NCBI GenBank assembly: GCA_937127245.1
Contig: CAKZLU010000032.1
Span: 62,001-126,000, forward strand
Reading direction: 5' to 3'
Length of the DNA: 64,000 nucleotides
Source of the DNA: an uncultured Actinomycetes bacterium
GTDB lineage: Bacteria > Actinomycetota > Geothermincolia > Fen-727 > JACVIW01
Numbering within the stretch: the first letter of the stretch is position 1; each line of letters starts with the position of its first letter. Position numbers and translations under genes: made by a program. The notes under the pieces are model-generated. The model saw nothing but the letters and a program-made list of their open reading frames with translations. It was not told where the DNA came from and searched no databases. Positions 17,214 through 61,726 of this stretch are shown piece after piece.

Positions 17214-17301
17214 TTGCCTTCTTTCTTAGCGGCGTCACGAATTTCAGAGCCGAGATAAAGAGTATATCCGAGTATCCAAATCAATTGGAGCATGATCTAC
17301 T

Positions 17302-17510
17302 TGCCCCGCCCCCCGCAGGGATATGTTTTTAATATTCCCTCCTTACTTCAGAAGTTTTCAATTCCCCCGCCCCCGCAGTGATATATTGTGATGGCATGAT
17401 AAAGTGGCAACCCTTTGAACACTCACCCCGCCCTCGCAGGGGTATCTGTCGATACTAATGAGTCGCCGCGCGGGGGGTCTCGCTTCCCCAGCTACCGCAA
17501 AGATATCTTT
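17302..17510 (+). repeat. Four degenerate ~22-28 bp repeats at regular 60-61 bp spacing (CRISPR-like geometry)
   Basis: CCCCGCCCCCCGCAGGGATATG, CCCCGCCCCCGCAGTGATATA, CCCCGCCCTCGCAGGGGTATCT, CCCCAGCTACCGCAAAGATATCT; the GCAG/GCAA anchors are at 17315, 17375, 17436 and 17497; spacers are dissimilar. Confidence 0.65.
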
Positions 17511-17839: not shown

Positions 17840-19087
17840 ATGAGGGAGCGAAAGTTCCAAATTCTAACGAATATTATGAAAAAGACGGGCAAAAAAGATG
17901 GGTTCAACCTTCTTGAACTTATGATAACTATTCTTGTGCTTTCAATACTTGTGGGAATATGCGTTCCTGTTTTCATGGGCAGGGCAAAGAGCGCTGATAA
18001 GACTACCGCGATGGCAAACATTAAAATCGGTGAGAAGTGTTACGACGCTATCTGGTATTCGAGACTTGCAATTCAGGGAAAGGATGCCTATCGCGATTAT
18101 GACCCGCCTGAAGCCCTGAAAGCCAAACCAGAATTCCAGGCAAACGGATGGATTCCCGTGGACGGGTATTACATGAGCCTCGAGGAGCCGAAGATAGGAT
18201 GGGCAGACCTCGAGGTTAGTGAAGGCTCTGAACCAATCGCGAGTGCTTATGTCGAGGGGCTCGGGATCGCCGCAGCGCCGGAGGGCTTCAGAATAAAGGC
18301 GGTATGGCTTGCGGGCACGAGGCTTGATAAAGGAAGCGAGGATTCAAGGAATTGGTCGCTGCTTGCGCACAAAGTAGGGGTTGTGACTGATTATTACTGG
18401 GAAAACGAATGGAAGCCCAACCCGGATAACAAATACGTTACGCTCATAGTTTTAGAAAAGTCTGGAACTGCCCACTATATTGTGTTGAATCTCGGAAAGA
18501 AAATCGCTGGCGGCAGTTTTGCTTGGGAAAATGGTCGCGGTAACCCCGGGGATGGAACCCAAGAGGGCGACCCTTCCGAAGAGGAGCCTGCGGAGCCTCC
18601 TGAGTACGAAGACGGTGAAGGGGGCTCGGAGGGCGATGAGCCGGTAACACCCGACCCTCCCGACGAACCGGTAAACCCGGGAGACCCTGGCACTCCTGGT
18701 GATCCGGGAGAACCGGGCAATCCGGGGGAGCCCGGAGACCCAGGGGTTTCTGAACCGCCTGATCAGCCGCCGGCTAGTTTCCTTGCGACGATAGTGAGGG
18801 TCGAGCCTGAAACTCTGAACCTCGCAAGTCAGGGGCTGTTCACGGTATACATAACCTTTCCCCAGGGAAGAAACGTTGCGGACACGGACATGACGTCTCT
18901 GAGATGCAGTGGGGCAATCGGGATTGAGTGCAATGTCGCATCCAGCCGGCTCGTGGTGAAATTCTACCGGCAGGATCTCGTGAACGTCCCTACGGGCAAC
19001 AATGTGGTTATAACCGTTTCAGGAAGACTTATGGACGGTACTACATTCGTGGCCTACGACTCTATAAGGGTCATAAGAAATAAGTAA
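17840..19087 (+). CDS. Type IV pilin-like protein with collagen-like/proline-rich linker and C-terminal domain
   Basis: KDGFNLLELMITILVLSILVGICVPVFMGRA prepilin motif; PGDPGTPGDPGEPGNPGEPGDPG repeat; C-terminal ~90-aa beta-type domain starting at VEPETLNLASQGLFTVYI. Confidence 0.85.
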   Translation: MRERKFQILTNIMKKTGKKDGFNLLELMITILVLSILVGICVPVFMGRAKSADKTTAMANIKIGEKCYDAIWYSRLAIQGKDAYRDYDPPEALKAKPEFQANGWIPVDGYYMSLEEPKIGWADLEVSEGSEPIASAYVEGLGIAAAPEGFRIKAVWLAGTRLDKGSEDSRNWSLLAHKVGVVTDYYWENEWKPNPDNKYVTLIVLEKSGTAHYIVLNLGKKIAGGSFAWENGRGNPGDGTQEGDPSEEEPAEPPEYEDGEGGSEGDEPVTPDPPDEPVNPGDPGTPGDPGEPGNPGEPGDPGVSEPPDQPPASFLATIVRVEPETLNLASQGLFTVYITFPQGRNVADTDMTSLRCSGAIGIECNVASSRLVVKFYRQDLVNVPTGNNVVITVSGRLMDGTTFVAYDSIRVIRNK

Positions 19088-56309: not shown

Positions 56310-57134
56310 TTATACCAGCCCCTTTTCTTTGAGTATCGTTGCGAGTTTCGTGGAAGTCTCCGAAGCGTCTCCCTCAAGAATCTCGGCGAGCTCACCGACT
56401 TCTGGCATGGAGTAACCTTTGAGCACGCTGAGTGACCCGTTCTCTCCGACCTCATCTGAGGAAAGTCCGGTCGCCGCAAGATCCATGATTTTTATCTCTT
56501 TCTTTGAGGCTTCTCGAATGCCTTTAAAAGAAGCGTATCTCGGCTCATTTATTCCGGTCTGGATAGTAAGAACACAGGGCATCTTTATCTCGCTCATCTC
56601 GAGCAATCCGCCCTCGAGTTCTCTGCCGACTTTAAGCGTCTTTTCATCGATCACTTCTACGCTCTTTACGTACGCAGCGTGCGGCACTCCAAGCAATTGC
56701 GCTAAAGTCTGTCCGGTCGCCGCGTATCCGTCGTCGGAAGCCATGCATCCGGTCATGACGACGTCAAATTCGATGTCCTTTATGGCTGACTGCAAAATTT
56801 TGGCGGTAGCGTAAACATCGGAAAACGCGAACGCTTCGTCTTCGAGCCTGATGGCTCTGTCTCCGCCCTTTGCGAGCGCCATCCTGATCACTTGGTTGGC
56901 CGCTTCGGGACCAATGCTGACAATCACTACTTCCCCACCGTGCTTCTCCTTGAGGAGAATCGCTTCCTCCACCCCGTAGTTGTCAGCTTCGTTGATCACA
57001 AAACTGAACTTGCTCTGGTCCACACCCCTACCTGTTGAGTCAATGTGGACCTCGGTGTCGGGGTCTGAAGTGTCCGGCACCTGCTTGACGCAGACCACAA
57101 TGTTCATTGTGAACTCACCTCTCTTTTTCCGCAA
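56310..57134 (-). CDS. etfB: Electron transfer flavoprotein beta subunit
   Basis: IVVCVKQVPDTSDPDTEVHIDSTGRGVDQSKFSFVINEADNYGVEEAILLKEKHGGEVVIVSIGP; VKVGRELEGGLLE-type ETF-beta segment. Confidence 0.96.
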   Translation of the reverse strand: MRKKRGEFTMNIVVCVKQVPDTSDPDTEVHIDSTGRGVDQSKFSFVINEADNYGVEEAILLKEKHGGEVVIVSIGPEAANQVIRMALAKGGDRAIRLEDEAFAFSDVYATAKILQSAIKDIEFDVVMTGCMASDDGYAATGQTLAQLLGVPHAAYVKSVEVIDEKTLKVGRELEGGLLEMSEIKMPCVLTIQTGINEPRYASFKGIREASKKEIKIMDLAATGLSSDEVGENGSLSVLKGYSMPEVGELAEILEGDASETSTKLATILKEKGLV

Positions 57135-57142
57135 AGATTCTA

Positions 57143-58285
57143 CTAAATTGCTTCGCCAAGCAACTCGAGGATATCAGCGACCCTCATCTCTTCCTCTAAT
57201 CCCTTTACTTTGAGCGCGTCTTCGAGTGTTAGCAGGCAGAAGGGACATGCAACCGCGATAGTCTTTGCACCGAGCGCCTGCGCGTCGAGGACCCTTGTCT
57301 CGGCAAGTCTGGGGGCTTTCGACTGGGACTCAACCCACATCTTGCCGCCGCCGCCCTCGCAGCAAAGGCTTCTCTCCTTTGACCTGAAAAACTCAGCGAG
57401 TTCCACGCCCTTTATCTTGCCGAGAATGTATCTGGGCTCATCGAAAACAAGATTCTTCTTGCCCAAATAGCAAGGATCGTGGTAAACGACCTGCGTGGCG
57501 ATTTCCCCAGGCAACTCGAGGCTTCCGGATTCAATCATTTCCGCTATCAATTGGGTGTAATGCATGACGGGAAGGTTAAGGTTCTGGTACTCGTTTTTGA
57601 AAGTGTTAAAGCAGTGAGGCGAAAGGGTCACGAGCCTGTTGACGTCAAACCTTGAGAAAAGTTCACTGTTTTCCTCGTCAAAGTATTCGAAAAGACCTTC
57701 CTCGCCGAGCCTTCTTGCTTCACTACCGCAGTGTTTTTCCTCTGTTCCGATGAATCCGTAGTCAACGCCGGCTTTCTCGAGCACCCGAACGAGATTTCTG
57801 GCAAGCGGGATTATTCGAGGGTCGTAGCAGGCGGTGCAGCATACGTGAATCAGTACGTCGGCTTTTTCGCCCTCCTCAAGGATGCGCACCTTTTCAACTC
57901 CATCAATCCCATCCATCCAATCGCAGCGTTTGGCGGCTGGCTTACCCCAGGGATTTCCGTTATTAAACATGCTTTCTAAAGCGTCTCGCGCCGTGGGCTC
58001 TATGTTGCCTTCCTCGGCCTTCATGCTTCTCAGCCCAATCAAAACTTCGAAAGGCTCCAAACCCTTAGGGCAACGAAGCGCGCATGTGTTGCAGGTGGTG
58101 CAGTCCCAGATCTCGGGCTTGTCCGCAAGTTCTTCGAGAATTTCCTCGTTGAGCGCCTCGTAGACGAATTTTCTGACATTCAGCGGGGTCCTGACGGTAA
58201 CGGGACAACCGCCGGTGCATCTGCCGCACTGAATACATCCTAAAAGGTCGTATTTCTTGACAAAAGTTCCTTCTTCGATGCCCAT
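57143..58285 (-). CDS. HdrD-like (fused HdrC-HdrB) iron-sulfur heterodisulfide-reductase-type protein
   Basis: Two N-terminal 4Fe-4S motifs (CIQCGRCTGGCPVTV; CTTCNTCALRCPKG), then CCG-type cysteine-rich segments (HVCCTACYDPR; VVYHDPCYLGK...LCCEGGGGKMWVE). Start taken at MGIEEG. Confidence 0.87.
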   Translation of the reverse strand: MGIEEGTFVKKYDLLGCIQCGRCTGGCPVTVRTPLNVRKFVYEALNEEILEELADKPEIWDCTTCNTCALRCPKGLEPFEVLIGLRSMKAEEGNIEPTARDALESMFNNGNPWGKPAAKRCDWMDGIDGVEKVRILEEGEKADVLIHVCCTACYDPRIIPLARNLVRVLEKAGVDYGFIGTEEKHCGSEARRLGEEGLFEYFDEENSELFSRFDVNRLVTLSPHCFNTFKNEYQNLNLPVMHYTQLIAEMIESGSLELPGEIATQVVYHDPCYLGKKNLVFDEPRYILGKIKGVELAEFFRSKERSLCCEGGGGKMWVESQSKAPRLAETRVLDAQALGAKTIAVACPFCLLTLEDALKVKGLEEEMRVADILELLGEAI

Positions 58286-58319
58286 TTTCAACTCCAGTCC
58301 TGAAAACCGACAAAATTCA

Positions 58320-58339
58320 GTGCACCCTTTGAGGTGCAC
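58320..58339. promoter_or_regulatory. 7-bp inverted repeat upstream of the hdrD/etf/hdrA/flx operon
   Basis: GTGCACC-CTTTGA-GGTGCAC, about 35 bp upstream of the first gene's start codon. Confidence 0.45.
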
Positions 58340-58440
58340 CGCTTATACTCTCGACGATTCCGACCGTGCAATTCTAAACATAGTTGGGTTCAAATTTCAA
58401 ATGCTAATTATTTGCTAAGAAGATATTTTGAGACGCCAAA

Positions 58441-58592
58441 TGCTTTCACCATGCGGGTGCGAAGGTACCTACAAAACAGCTCATTCTCAAAATTCAACTT
58501 CGCTTTCGCCACGCGGGGCAGAGATATCTTCTTCGATCGCCGCCTCCAGCGGCTGCAGAACGCTTTCGCCACCCGAGCACGAAGATATCCGC
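58441..58592 (+). repeat. Three degenerate ~30-bp repeats with exact 60-bp period (CRISPR-like geometry)
   Basis: TGCTTTCACCATGCGGGTGCGAAGGTACCT (58441), CGCTTTCGCCACGCGGGGCAGAGATATCTT (58501), CGCTTTCGCCACCCGAGCACGAAGATATCC (58561); intervening ~30 nt dissimilar. Confidence 0.7.
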
Positions 58593-58744
58593 GGCTTTCC
58601 CTCTGGCTTGTTCACTTCGGGTCGCCGCCAGAAAATTAACTATAAACACCGTTTTTTAAAAACCCTGTATCTGTCTTGATAAAAGCCCGAAGGGACATTC
58701 GACCCCTCGTATGGGGTTGCGAACCTGTCTTAGCGATTGATTGC

Positions 58745-59506
58745 TCACGTCTTGAGAATGCCCCCGAGAATGCCCCCCGCTCCGCCGGTTGACCCACCGG
58801 GTGACTGAAGGCTTGTTTTAGGGGCTTCCTCGCTCGGCTGGACGATAACGTACCCGTTACCCTGAAAAGCGAGTTGGAACAGTTCACCGTGGGTTGAGCC
58901 GAATATTCCGGCGAGGCTCTTGAGGTTTGCGTCAACGTGAATGGTGGGCTCAAGCCCCTGAGACCATGCCACGGTTGCATTCGGGTCGGTGTACGTGGGC
59001 GTCTCGGGAGTTACTTGCAAGGTGAGCGGCTCTCCCTTGCAAATCAGGGCTAAGTAGCCGGTCCCGGACAGAGCTACCGTCCACAGCCCACCCGTGATGA
59101 TCCCGGCGGGACTCTTAAGCATCGTTATGTCCCAGGAGATTCCCTGGGTGAAGGCAAGAAGGTTAAGCGCTTCAACCGTCAGGCTTTCGTTTTCAAGATA
59201 AAGCAGGACGATGTCATTTGCCGCGTCTGCGAGAAACAGGTCCCCTTCGCCTGCCACTTCCATCAGGGTAAATTGCTCGCCGGAAATCTTCTTCTTAATC
59301 CATTTATCAATTCCGCCGCTTCCCTTTCTCTGAAAGCTCATCTCTCCCTGATAAGCGATCATCGAACCGGCTTTGGCCATCACCTTTCCCCTGGCTGACG
59401 CCATGTTTACCTTGAGGAGTTTTTTGTTCTGTAAAACGAAGGCGTCGGGTGTTTCCACCTCCCTGCCCTGTTCGAGAAGTTGATTAAGCCGCATCGCCTT
59501 TTCCAT
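58745..59506 (-). CDS. AIM24/TIGR00266 family protein
   Basis: VKAGSMIAYQGEMSFQRKGSGG-type motif (MAKAGSMIAYQGEMSF), GEGDLFLADAANDIVLLYLENESLTVEALNLLAFTQGISWDI, ALSGTGYLALICKGEPLTLQV; glycine-rich C-terminus. Confidence 0.9.
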   Translation of the reverse strand: MEKAMRLNQLLEQGREVETPDAFVLQNKKLLKVNMASARGKVMAKAGSMIAYQGEMSFQRKGSGGIDKWIKKKISGEQFTLMEVAGEGDLFLADAANDIVLLYLENESLTVEALNLLAFTQGISWDITMLKSPAGIITGGLWTVALSGTGYLALICKGEPLTLQVTPETPTYTDPNATVAWSQGLEPTIHVDANLKSLAGIFGSTHGELFQLAFQGNGYVIVQPSEEAPKTSLQSPGGSTGGAGGILGGILKT

Positions 59507-59938
59507 CGTTTTCTCCTTTCAGTAAAAGGCAAACCCGAAAGAATGTTTCAGGTGCTTACGAGTCTACATCTAAATATTATCACTAACCGGGTCTTGGGGT
59601 TTATTAACGAGGGATACGAAAACGTTTGAAGGAGGGTGGATTTGTTTTTCGCCGGTGGGTGATTTTCCCACTCTCTTTTAATTCTGCAGGTTTTTCGGGC
59701 TGTCTAAAACAGGCGCTGGTCTCCCGTTATTTCGCCGGAGTTATTTTTAAGTCCCGTCACGGAACCTCTATTCCGCGTGACGCGGAGAACGGTGCACACG
59801 CATTTTTTTCAAGTAGCAGATCGCTATACAGCGCGTCAAGCAATCTCTATTACGACTGATGCGTAAAACGATGGATGCTCTTGACTGATGTGCGCGGTTA
59901 AGTTGGGAAGATGGGAATGCAATTAAGAGGTTACTAAC

Positions 59939-61726
59939 TCAGAATTCGAGCCTTACCTCTGTGCCCTCATCGACAAGAGTCCCGCCTCGGGGGTTTTGCC
60001 CCGCTACTATCGTGTTGTCATTCGGTGATCCATCAAAACCGATGCTAAGCTTGGCGTTTAGAAGTTTGTCCTTAGCGTCTTTGAATCTCATCCCAACCAC
60101 ATTCGGAACGGTCACCTTTTTTGGTCGGACCGCTACCCTTATGGTCACGGACGTTCCTTTGGACACAGATTCTCCTTCCTTAGGTGTCTGTTCGAACACC
60201 AAACCTTCAGGGTGCTCCGTGGTCGTTGCCTCCTCTACGTTTGTCGTCAATCCTTTCTGTTCAAGAAGCTTCGTTGCGGCATCCCGGGTCATCCCGATCA
60301 AGCGGGGGACTGCGACCATTTCCGGACCCTTGCTTACCGCAAGATCGACGCTTGACCCTTTCCTGACGTCTGTTCCCGGAGCGGGATTTTGAGAGGATAC
60401 TTTTCCGGCTGGCTGACTTGAAGAAAACTCCTCGGTCACGTTGCCCACCTTCAAGCCCTCACTTTGAATTCTTGCCTTTGCCTCATCGAGGCTTAGACCC
60501 CTGCAGTCAGGTACACTGATGAGCGGGGCGCCTCTGCTTACCACTATATCGACTTTCATGTTCTTTGTTATCTTGCTTCCCGCCTTTGGGTTCTGGGAAA
60601 TTATTTTCCCTTCCGGCACCGTCTCGCTATAATCCTTGGTTACGTTGCCGAGCAGCAGTCCGGCATCTGAAAGAATCTTCTTGGCCTCGGCTTCTGATTT
60701 TCCGGTCAGGTCGGGAACGGTTATGGCTGAAGTTCCCCTCAAGACTCCCCAGACACCGAAAGCGATGGCGATTGCGGCAACGATGATAAGTACCACCCAC
60801 GGCCATTTTCTTGATTTCCCTCTCTGTGGAAGTGATGTCACGGGATATACTCTCGTGGCTTCCGTGGTTTTTTCCTCCGGGGGCAAAACTGGCGTGGCGT
60901 AAACCGGTGTTCCCTCGAGGCAGCGTTCCAGATCAGCTCTCATCTCAGTCGCGCTCTGATAGCGGTTTTGAGGATTTTTGGCAAGCGCTTTCAGCACTAT
61001 TGCCTCAAGCTCGGGCGAGATATCGGGGTTCAAGATTGACGGAGGGAGTGGATCTTCTCTCACATGTTTGTAAGCGATTGCCACCGGCGTTTCCCCATCG
61101 AACGGGACTTTGGCTGTCAGCAGTTCGTAAAGGACGATTCCGAGTGAATACAGGTCGGATCTCGGGTCAGCTGTTCTTCCCTGCGCTTGCTCCGGCGAAA
61201 TGTACTGCGCCGTGCCTATTATTGTCCCGGTCTGCGTTATCGAGGAACCACCGGAAGTGCGCGCTATCCCGAAATCCATAACTTTTATCTGGTTGTCTCT
61301 GGTCACGATGACATTGTGGGGCTTGATGTCACGGTGTACTATTCCGTGTGAATGCGCCGCCTCGAGCGCCATGCATATCGAGATAGCGATTTCAACCGCC
61401 CGCTCCGGCATGAGGGGAGCGTTCTCGAGAATGACGTCTTTAAGGCTTTTTCCCTCGACATACTCCATGATTATGTAATGGAGATCCCCTTCAACACCCC
61501 AGTCGTAAACGTTGACGATGTTCGGATGAGTGATGTTAGCCGCCGCCTGGGCTTCATGGCGGAAACGCTCTATGTAGACCGGGTCTCTGGAAAACTGCGG
61601 GTGAAGCACTTTTACGGCGACAGTCCGTCCCAGCAGGCGGTCTATCGCCATATAGACATCAGCCATGCCGCCGGTTCCGACCTGTCTTTTTATTTCATAT
61701 CTATCGTTTAGTATTTGTCCAATCAT
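59939..61726 (-). CDS. Stk1/PknB-family Ser/Thr protein kinase with PASTA repeats
   Basis: YEIKRQVGTGGMADVYMAIDRLLGRTVAVKVL, HGIVHRDIKPHNVIV, single TM KWPWVVLIIVAAIAIAFGVWGVL, four PASTA repeats (VPDLTGKSEAEAKKILSDAGLLLG...). Confidence 0.96.
   Translation of the reverse strand: MIGQILNDRYEIKRQVGTGGMADVYMAIDRLLGRTVAVKVLHPQFSRDPVYIERFRHEAQAAANITHPNIVNVYDWGVEGDLHYIIMEYVEGKSLKDVILENAPLMPERAVEIAISICMALEAAHSHGIVHRDIKPHNVIVTRDNQIKVMDFGIARTSGGSSITQTGTIIGTAQYISPEQAQGRTADPRSDLYSLGIVLYELLTAKVPFDGETPVAIAYKHVREDPLPPSILNPDISPELEAIVLKALAKNPQNRYQSATEMRADLERCLEGTPVYATPVLPPEEKTTEATRVYPVTSLPQRGKSRKWPWVVLIIVAAIAIAFGVWGVLRGTSAITVPDLTGKSEAEAKKILSDAGLLLGNVTKDYSETVPEGKIISQNPKAGSKITKNMKVDIVVSRGAPLISVPDCRGLSLDEAKARIQSEGLKVGNVTEEFSSSQPAGKVSSQNPAPGTDVRKGSSVDLAVSKGPEMVAVPRLIGMTRDAATKLLEQKGLTTNVEEATTTEHPEGLVFEQTPKEGESVSKGTSVTIRVAVRPKKVTVPNVVGMRFKDAKDKLLNAKLSIGFDGSPNDNTIVAGQNPRGGTLVDEGTEVRLEF

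Follow-up and report, generated by a model that had tools for sequence, protein, structure and literature searches.

The three degenerate repeats at positions 58441-58592 of the window, the whole 64,000-nucleotide stretch of DNA that was analysed, probably represent an eroded, non-functional CRISPR-type array (array V). It would belong to a set of about 14 in the genome that arose by spacer capture, with self DNA as one of the sources. Array V is probably neither a functional CRISPR array nor a tandem satellite, and most likely it does not regulate the neighbouring Hdr/Etf operon. Relics of CRISPR arrays were among the options raised by the original prediction, and this option is best supported by the subtype I-E period, the unrelated spacers, the I-E-like consensus of three sister arrays, and the spacers of sister arrays that come from the host chromosome. 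Standard array finders are expected to miss such arrays because they seek near-identical repeats, and decayed CRISPR-type arrays could be common yet uncounted. Moreover, spacers taken from self DNA and placed at scattered intergenic loci would document off-target integration in nature, for which the evidence cited so far comes from Cas1-Cas2 overexpression (PMC11788318), and the birth of new CRISPR loci would become accessible to comparative genomics.

Array V and its sister cluster

Array V consists of three units of about 29 nt that start at 58441, 58501, and 58561 with a spacing of 60/60, exactly as originally described in both sequence and coordinates. On the forward strand, unit V1 (TGCTTTCACCATGCGGGTGCGAAGGTACCT, 58441..58470), the most diverged of the three, is followed by spacer 1 (58471..58500), unit V2 (CGCTTTCGCCACGCGGGGCAGAGATATCTT, 58501..58530), spacer 2 (58531..58560), and unit V3 (CGCTTTCGCCACCCGAGCACGAAGATATCC, 58561..58590). 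The two spacers, each of about 31 nt, are uniform in length and mutually unrelated, and the direct repeats are regularly spaced, as in a CRISPR array. Pairwise identity of the units is 0.62 (ungapped); V2 and V3 have CGCTTTCGCCAC and a GATATC end in common, with a one-base indel inside the repeat of one of them. None of 300 dinucleotide shuffles reaches the three-copy periodicity of the real sequence. The dyad TTCGC...GCGAA that had been ascribed to the repeat is a composite and does not hold as a feature of a single unit, V1 having the right arm only and V2 the left arm only; what stands of it is the CTTTCG...CGAAG of V3. Rfam covariance models gave no match up to E = 1 over 57000-60000.

The second cluster announced near 17.3 kb is real. 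This sister array U (17300..17510, forward strand) has four units, starting at 17300, 17360, 17421, and 17482 with a spacing of 60/61/61, a pairwise identity of 0.68, and a three-copy periodicity above all 300 dinucleotide shuffles. Its consensus, TTCCCCGCCCCCGCAGGGATA, equals the I-E repeat at 18 of 21 positions. A matrix made from the four U units only was scored over both strands of the window, and V2 came first among all non-training positions (15.8 bits; next 10.4), while V3 ranked 44th and V1 431st. The reverse cross-test, in which the 58.4-kb units were used to find the 17.3-kb ones in the window, fails. The two clusters are therefore probably related, with most of the support coming from the single unit V2. 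As a separate observation, the window codes for a collagen-like GXY-type repeat at 18675-18741, within a predicted prepilin-like protein gene (17840-19087).

Similar arrays elsewhere in the genome

The proposal that V and U belong to one dispersed sequence family survives only in part. V2 does resemble U, but a profile built from all seven units, by which the family was to be traced through the 2.62-Mb genome, matched its seven training units only; under the refuting condition set out with the original prediction, the repeats as a sequence family would be confined to two loci. Across the genomes of the class (31 including the own genome), the same profile gave isolated matches only, with E values of 0.09-0.45 that were taken as chance. 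What is shared more widely is the architecture, each dispersed locus carrying its own repeat.

This architecture was traced by an agnostic lag scan, which assumes no sequence and asks only that three copies follow one another at a fixed lag (30-129 bp); it covered about 1.55 Mb, or 59%, of the genome. About 14 arrays came up, each with its own degenerate repeat: the period is 60-62 bp in eight of them and 70-74 bp in six or seven. Besides V and U, the 60-62-bp class includes array W (C32:145230), array X (C34:43845; 13-14 units), array Y (C22:7237; 8 units), array Z (C23:45112), array P (C25:46062), and array Q (C42:11757; 6 units). Among 26 scan hits outside long ORFs, 15 lie at lags of 60-62 or 70-74, which make up 8 of the 100 lags and would be expected to hold about two. 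At the main threshold, the scan found nothing in three shuffled versions of the sequence; the sibling species gave no hits outside ORFs in the 356 kb scanned, and the 70-74 hits in three other class or order relatives (400 kb) were one intact CRISPR array. An intact 61-bp array was not found, nor was the repeat of array P in 396 other genomes of the phylum sample. A search of the literature on decayed or relic arrays brought up no description of such a set. One 70-bp candidate (G000:C22:23636) was removed from the CRISPR-like arrays, being a tandem duplication in which the spacers are alike too (0.56); a glycosidase-like gene has its ribosome-binding site and its start codon in the last copy of this duplication (L131:3636-3820).

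Repeats are 28-30 nt long in the 60-62-bp class and around 36 nt in the 70-74-bp class. The identity profile of six arrays rises sharply at the left repeat edge, drops over positions 27-31, and stays at background elsewhere. Within the arrays, repeats are 50-82% alike, and those of V and U (62-68%) are far below the level of a live array. Differences between repeats comprise 56 transitions and 42 transversions, a transition-rich pattern that copies of one ancestor should show. The hairpins show no sign of structural selection: visual inspection of array X had suggested compensation, but in a test the two arms of a unit paired no better than arms exchanged among units. Rfam matches on arrays X and Y were all far below the gathering score. 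Neutral decay with indels might be expected to produce a less regular spacing, though the scan itself favours regular arrays.

Arrays of subtype I-E have a 28-29-nt repeat and a 32-33-nt spacer, giving a 60-61-bp period. Array V has the same 60-61-bp period and 28-29-nt repeat, and its class likewise combines C-rich/G-rich hairpin repeats of 28-29 nt with unrelated 32-33-nt spacers. Against the E. coli I-E repeat, taken as reference, the consensus sequences of U, X, and Y score 13.7-16.4, above the level of 13.6 that 99% of random C-armed hairpins fail to reach. The V consensus scores 9.1 and is only weakly I-E-like, and those of W, Z, P, and Q also align weakly with this reference. Unlike subtype I-E arrays, the present ones have repeats of limited likeness, a locus-specific consensus, no detected Cas6e or Cas7, and spacers that detectably come from self.

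Cas machinery and sources of the spacers

A single Cas1 is encoded in the genome, within a complete type I-G operon of Cas3g, Cas8g, Cas7g, Cas5/6g, Cas4-Cas1, and Cas2 (G000:C34:69350-78776; L017:9350-18776), which is followed at the contig end by the first two 36-nt repeats with a 74-bp period. This period is also that of some of the 70-74-bp arrays. By contrast, the 36-nt repeat of the resident system, GTATCCACGGATAAATCACCGTGGCCCAATTGAAGC, has no clear relation to V or U, and V lacks both the 36-nt repeat and the 74-bp period of a resident type I-G array. The sole Cas1 being of the I-G type, no I-E Cas1 was found. Cas6e (PF08798) is absent in the 31 class genomes and I-E Cas7 (PF09344) in the own genome, both being detected in two control genomes; since the genome is 94.85% complete, an I-E locus may sit in a gap. 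No cas remnant was seen among the ORFs that flank X, Y, and W.

The 53 spacers that remain when the duplication array is left out were compared with the own genome (59% read), with 250 shuffles each. Four of them, all in sister arrays, match host genes beyond every shuffle (shuffle maximum 25-26): spacer X12 matches dnaB at 29/33 positions, X3 an RND-like membrane protein gene at 28/34, B74-1 the 3' end of a recX-like gene at 28/36, and Y2 a membrane protein gene at 27/33, the gene names being putative ones read from the translated ORFs. The self-matches are centred on the spacer, with extensions of seven bases to the left in Y2 and three to the right in X3. Own-gene matches of spacers X8 and Z2 do not exceed chance and were not counted. 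When these two are included, the mismatches of the six best matches fall at codon positions in the ratio 14/12/15, an even spread that points to a decaying spacer as opposed to a mutating homologous gene; four of the six are antisense and two are sense. By eye, AAG lies beside one X match only, and no common protospacer-adjacent motif was seen. The two V spacers, for which a search had been proposed, do not match the compared 59% of the genome significantly, and neither do the three U spacers. Furthermore, two 21-22-mers from the V spacers found nothing among IMG/VR viral contigs, and the 53 spacers yielded no outlier against the sibling and class relatives.

The self-targeting cases of Stern et al. 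2010, as recounted in PMC6990116, likewise combine spacers from the own chromosome, missing cas genes, and mutated repeats. The share of self-targeting spacers in the survey quoted there is about 0.4%, in contrast to at least 4 of 53 here, despite decay and with 59% of the genome compared.

The sibling species and the origin of the arrays

The sibling species Ca. Geohydrothermomicrobium daggyaiense (G001) has none of the arrays at the four loci that could be compared (V, U, Y, and X). At the V locus it keeps the Hdr promoter block and the AIM24 gene, and the intergenic region is 97 bp shorter. The block that holds the promoter and the start of the Hdr/Etf operon (58260..58403, minus strand) is 90% identical in the sibling and lies outside the array, and the best promoter-like site is at 58371-58400 on the minus strand. 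The distance of about 155 bp from the first V unit to the first operon gene had been given correctly. Array V is located upstream of both the conserved promoter block and the best promoter-like site, and hence outside the 5' UTR; together with its absence in the sibling, this position goes against the regulatory or 5' UTR role that had been suggested. An exact 12-bp tandem, GAGAATGCCCCC, was also seen in this region at window 58754-58777, inside the terminal 3' part of the AIM24-family gene, which ends at 58745.

At U and Y, the intergenic regions of the sibling are shorter by 213 and 413 bp. For the 3, 4, and 8 units of V, U, and Y, (N-1) x 60-61 amounts to 120, 182, and 427, near the observed 97, 213, and 413, as expected if a single copy preceded each array and grew in place, a weak pattern of three points. 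The sibling intergenic regions are too diverged to display a single-copy repeat. At the X locus, the sibling (1.8 kb) lacks both the array and the neighbouring methyltransferase gene, which together lie at L061:3580-5636 (G000:C34) between xerC and a peptidase gene; for the array Q locus, the search in the sibling found nothing.

According to the proposed mechanism, a Cas1-Cas2-type integrase would have captured fragments of about 33 bp, for which the chromosome of the cell itself served as at least one source. Successive insertion of these fragments at intergenic sites would each time have duplicated a target of about 29 bp. Such duplication at each insertion site would account for the locus-specific repeats. 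With no matching effector left, the arrays would have been neither maintained nor lethal to the cell, and would then have decayed via independent point mutation. By extension from its sister arrays, V would share this history. Points that speak against it are the V spacers, for which no source was found, the weak I-E likeness of V, the low repeat identity, the failure to find an intact 61-bp array or an I-E Cas1, the different consensus repeats of the arrays, and the regular spacing. For the founding step, the analysis leans towards off-target sites, as the loci are scattered, cas remnants are missing where checked, and the repeats do not converge, at about even odds with relics of a lost I-E system. 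In its full form, in which an integrase measuring by two rulers, of 61 and of 70-74 bp, repeatedly founded intergenic arrays from own DNA and left a graded off-target record, this reading is tentative. It resembles the neo-CRISPR loci from Cas1-Cas2 off-target integration (Nivala et al. 2018, as cited in PMC11788318), where arrays likewise arise outside the CRISPR locus via integration and locus-specific repeats and self spacers are expected. It differs in that the cited case followed laboratory overexpression of Cas1-Cas2, whereas the present arrays are natural, several units long, and decayed.

The remaining possibility for the founding step, a sub-case of the best explanation that differs in how the arrays were founded, is that complete I-E (and other) systems lost their cas genes, perhaps after self-targeting, and that their arrays decayed in situ. 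It could account for the I-E period and the I-E-like consensus of X, Y, and U, and loss of cas genes following self-targeting is a known, precedented outcome (PMC6990116). One lost system would not, however, give consensus repeats that differ from array to array and fail to converge. Also weighing against it are the unrelated intergenic positions of the eight arrays, Cas6e of the I-E type in 0 of 31 class genomes, the absence of the P repeat from 396 other genomes of the phylum sample, and the lack of cas remnants among the ORFs next to X, Y, and W; this origin is somewhat doubtful.

Explanations outside CRISPR-type decay fare worse. It is improbable that the units are functional structured or guide RNAs, each a hairpin with a guide partly complementary to a regulated host gene. 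Own-gene matches that are antisense in four of the six best would suit such RNAs, as would the precedent of CreTA/CreA RNAs, which carry degenerate repeats and host-directed guides (PMC9458426), but hairpins without compensatory change, evenly spread mismatches, two sense matches among six, no I-E effector found, and arrays not conserved in the sibling tell against them. Repeated operator sites for the Hdr/Etf operon would fit the three copies, set apart from each other, that lie upstream of a promoter-like site; they are a very unlikely explanation, given that the sibling promoter block is kept at 90% identity without the sites and that a dozen loci unrelated to this one show the same architecture with other sequences. 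Drift between the copies of a plain tandem duplication of 60-74 bp does account for one array in this genome, that at G000:C22:23636 with its alike spacers. The other arrays, though, have unrelated spacers, alike repeats, and sharp edges, and four spacers derive from elsewhere in the chromosome; for V and U this reading is largely refuted by the unrelated spacers, and as a general account it is even less likely than operator sites. Chance resemblance in GC-rich intergenic DNA, which the three short units might invite, is scarcely credible against 0 of 300 shuffles, the lack of hits in shuffled genome sequence, and the finding of V2 by the U matrix.

Other repeats of different kinds were seen in passing. 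Degenerate spaced repeats of 94 bp (G016, L113:2471-2750) and of 71 bp (G000, L131:14200-14400) lie, in these two distant relatives, directly upstream of a 3-hydroxyacyl-CoA dehydrogenase-like gene, possibly by coincidence. Additionally, a near-exact 47-bp tandem repeat with TTGCGAGGAGCGCAGCGACGAAGCAATC is present at L153:3736-3923 (G000:C43), and the repeat containing this sequence is presumably of the palindromic repeat type of many uncultured bacteria.
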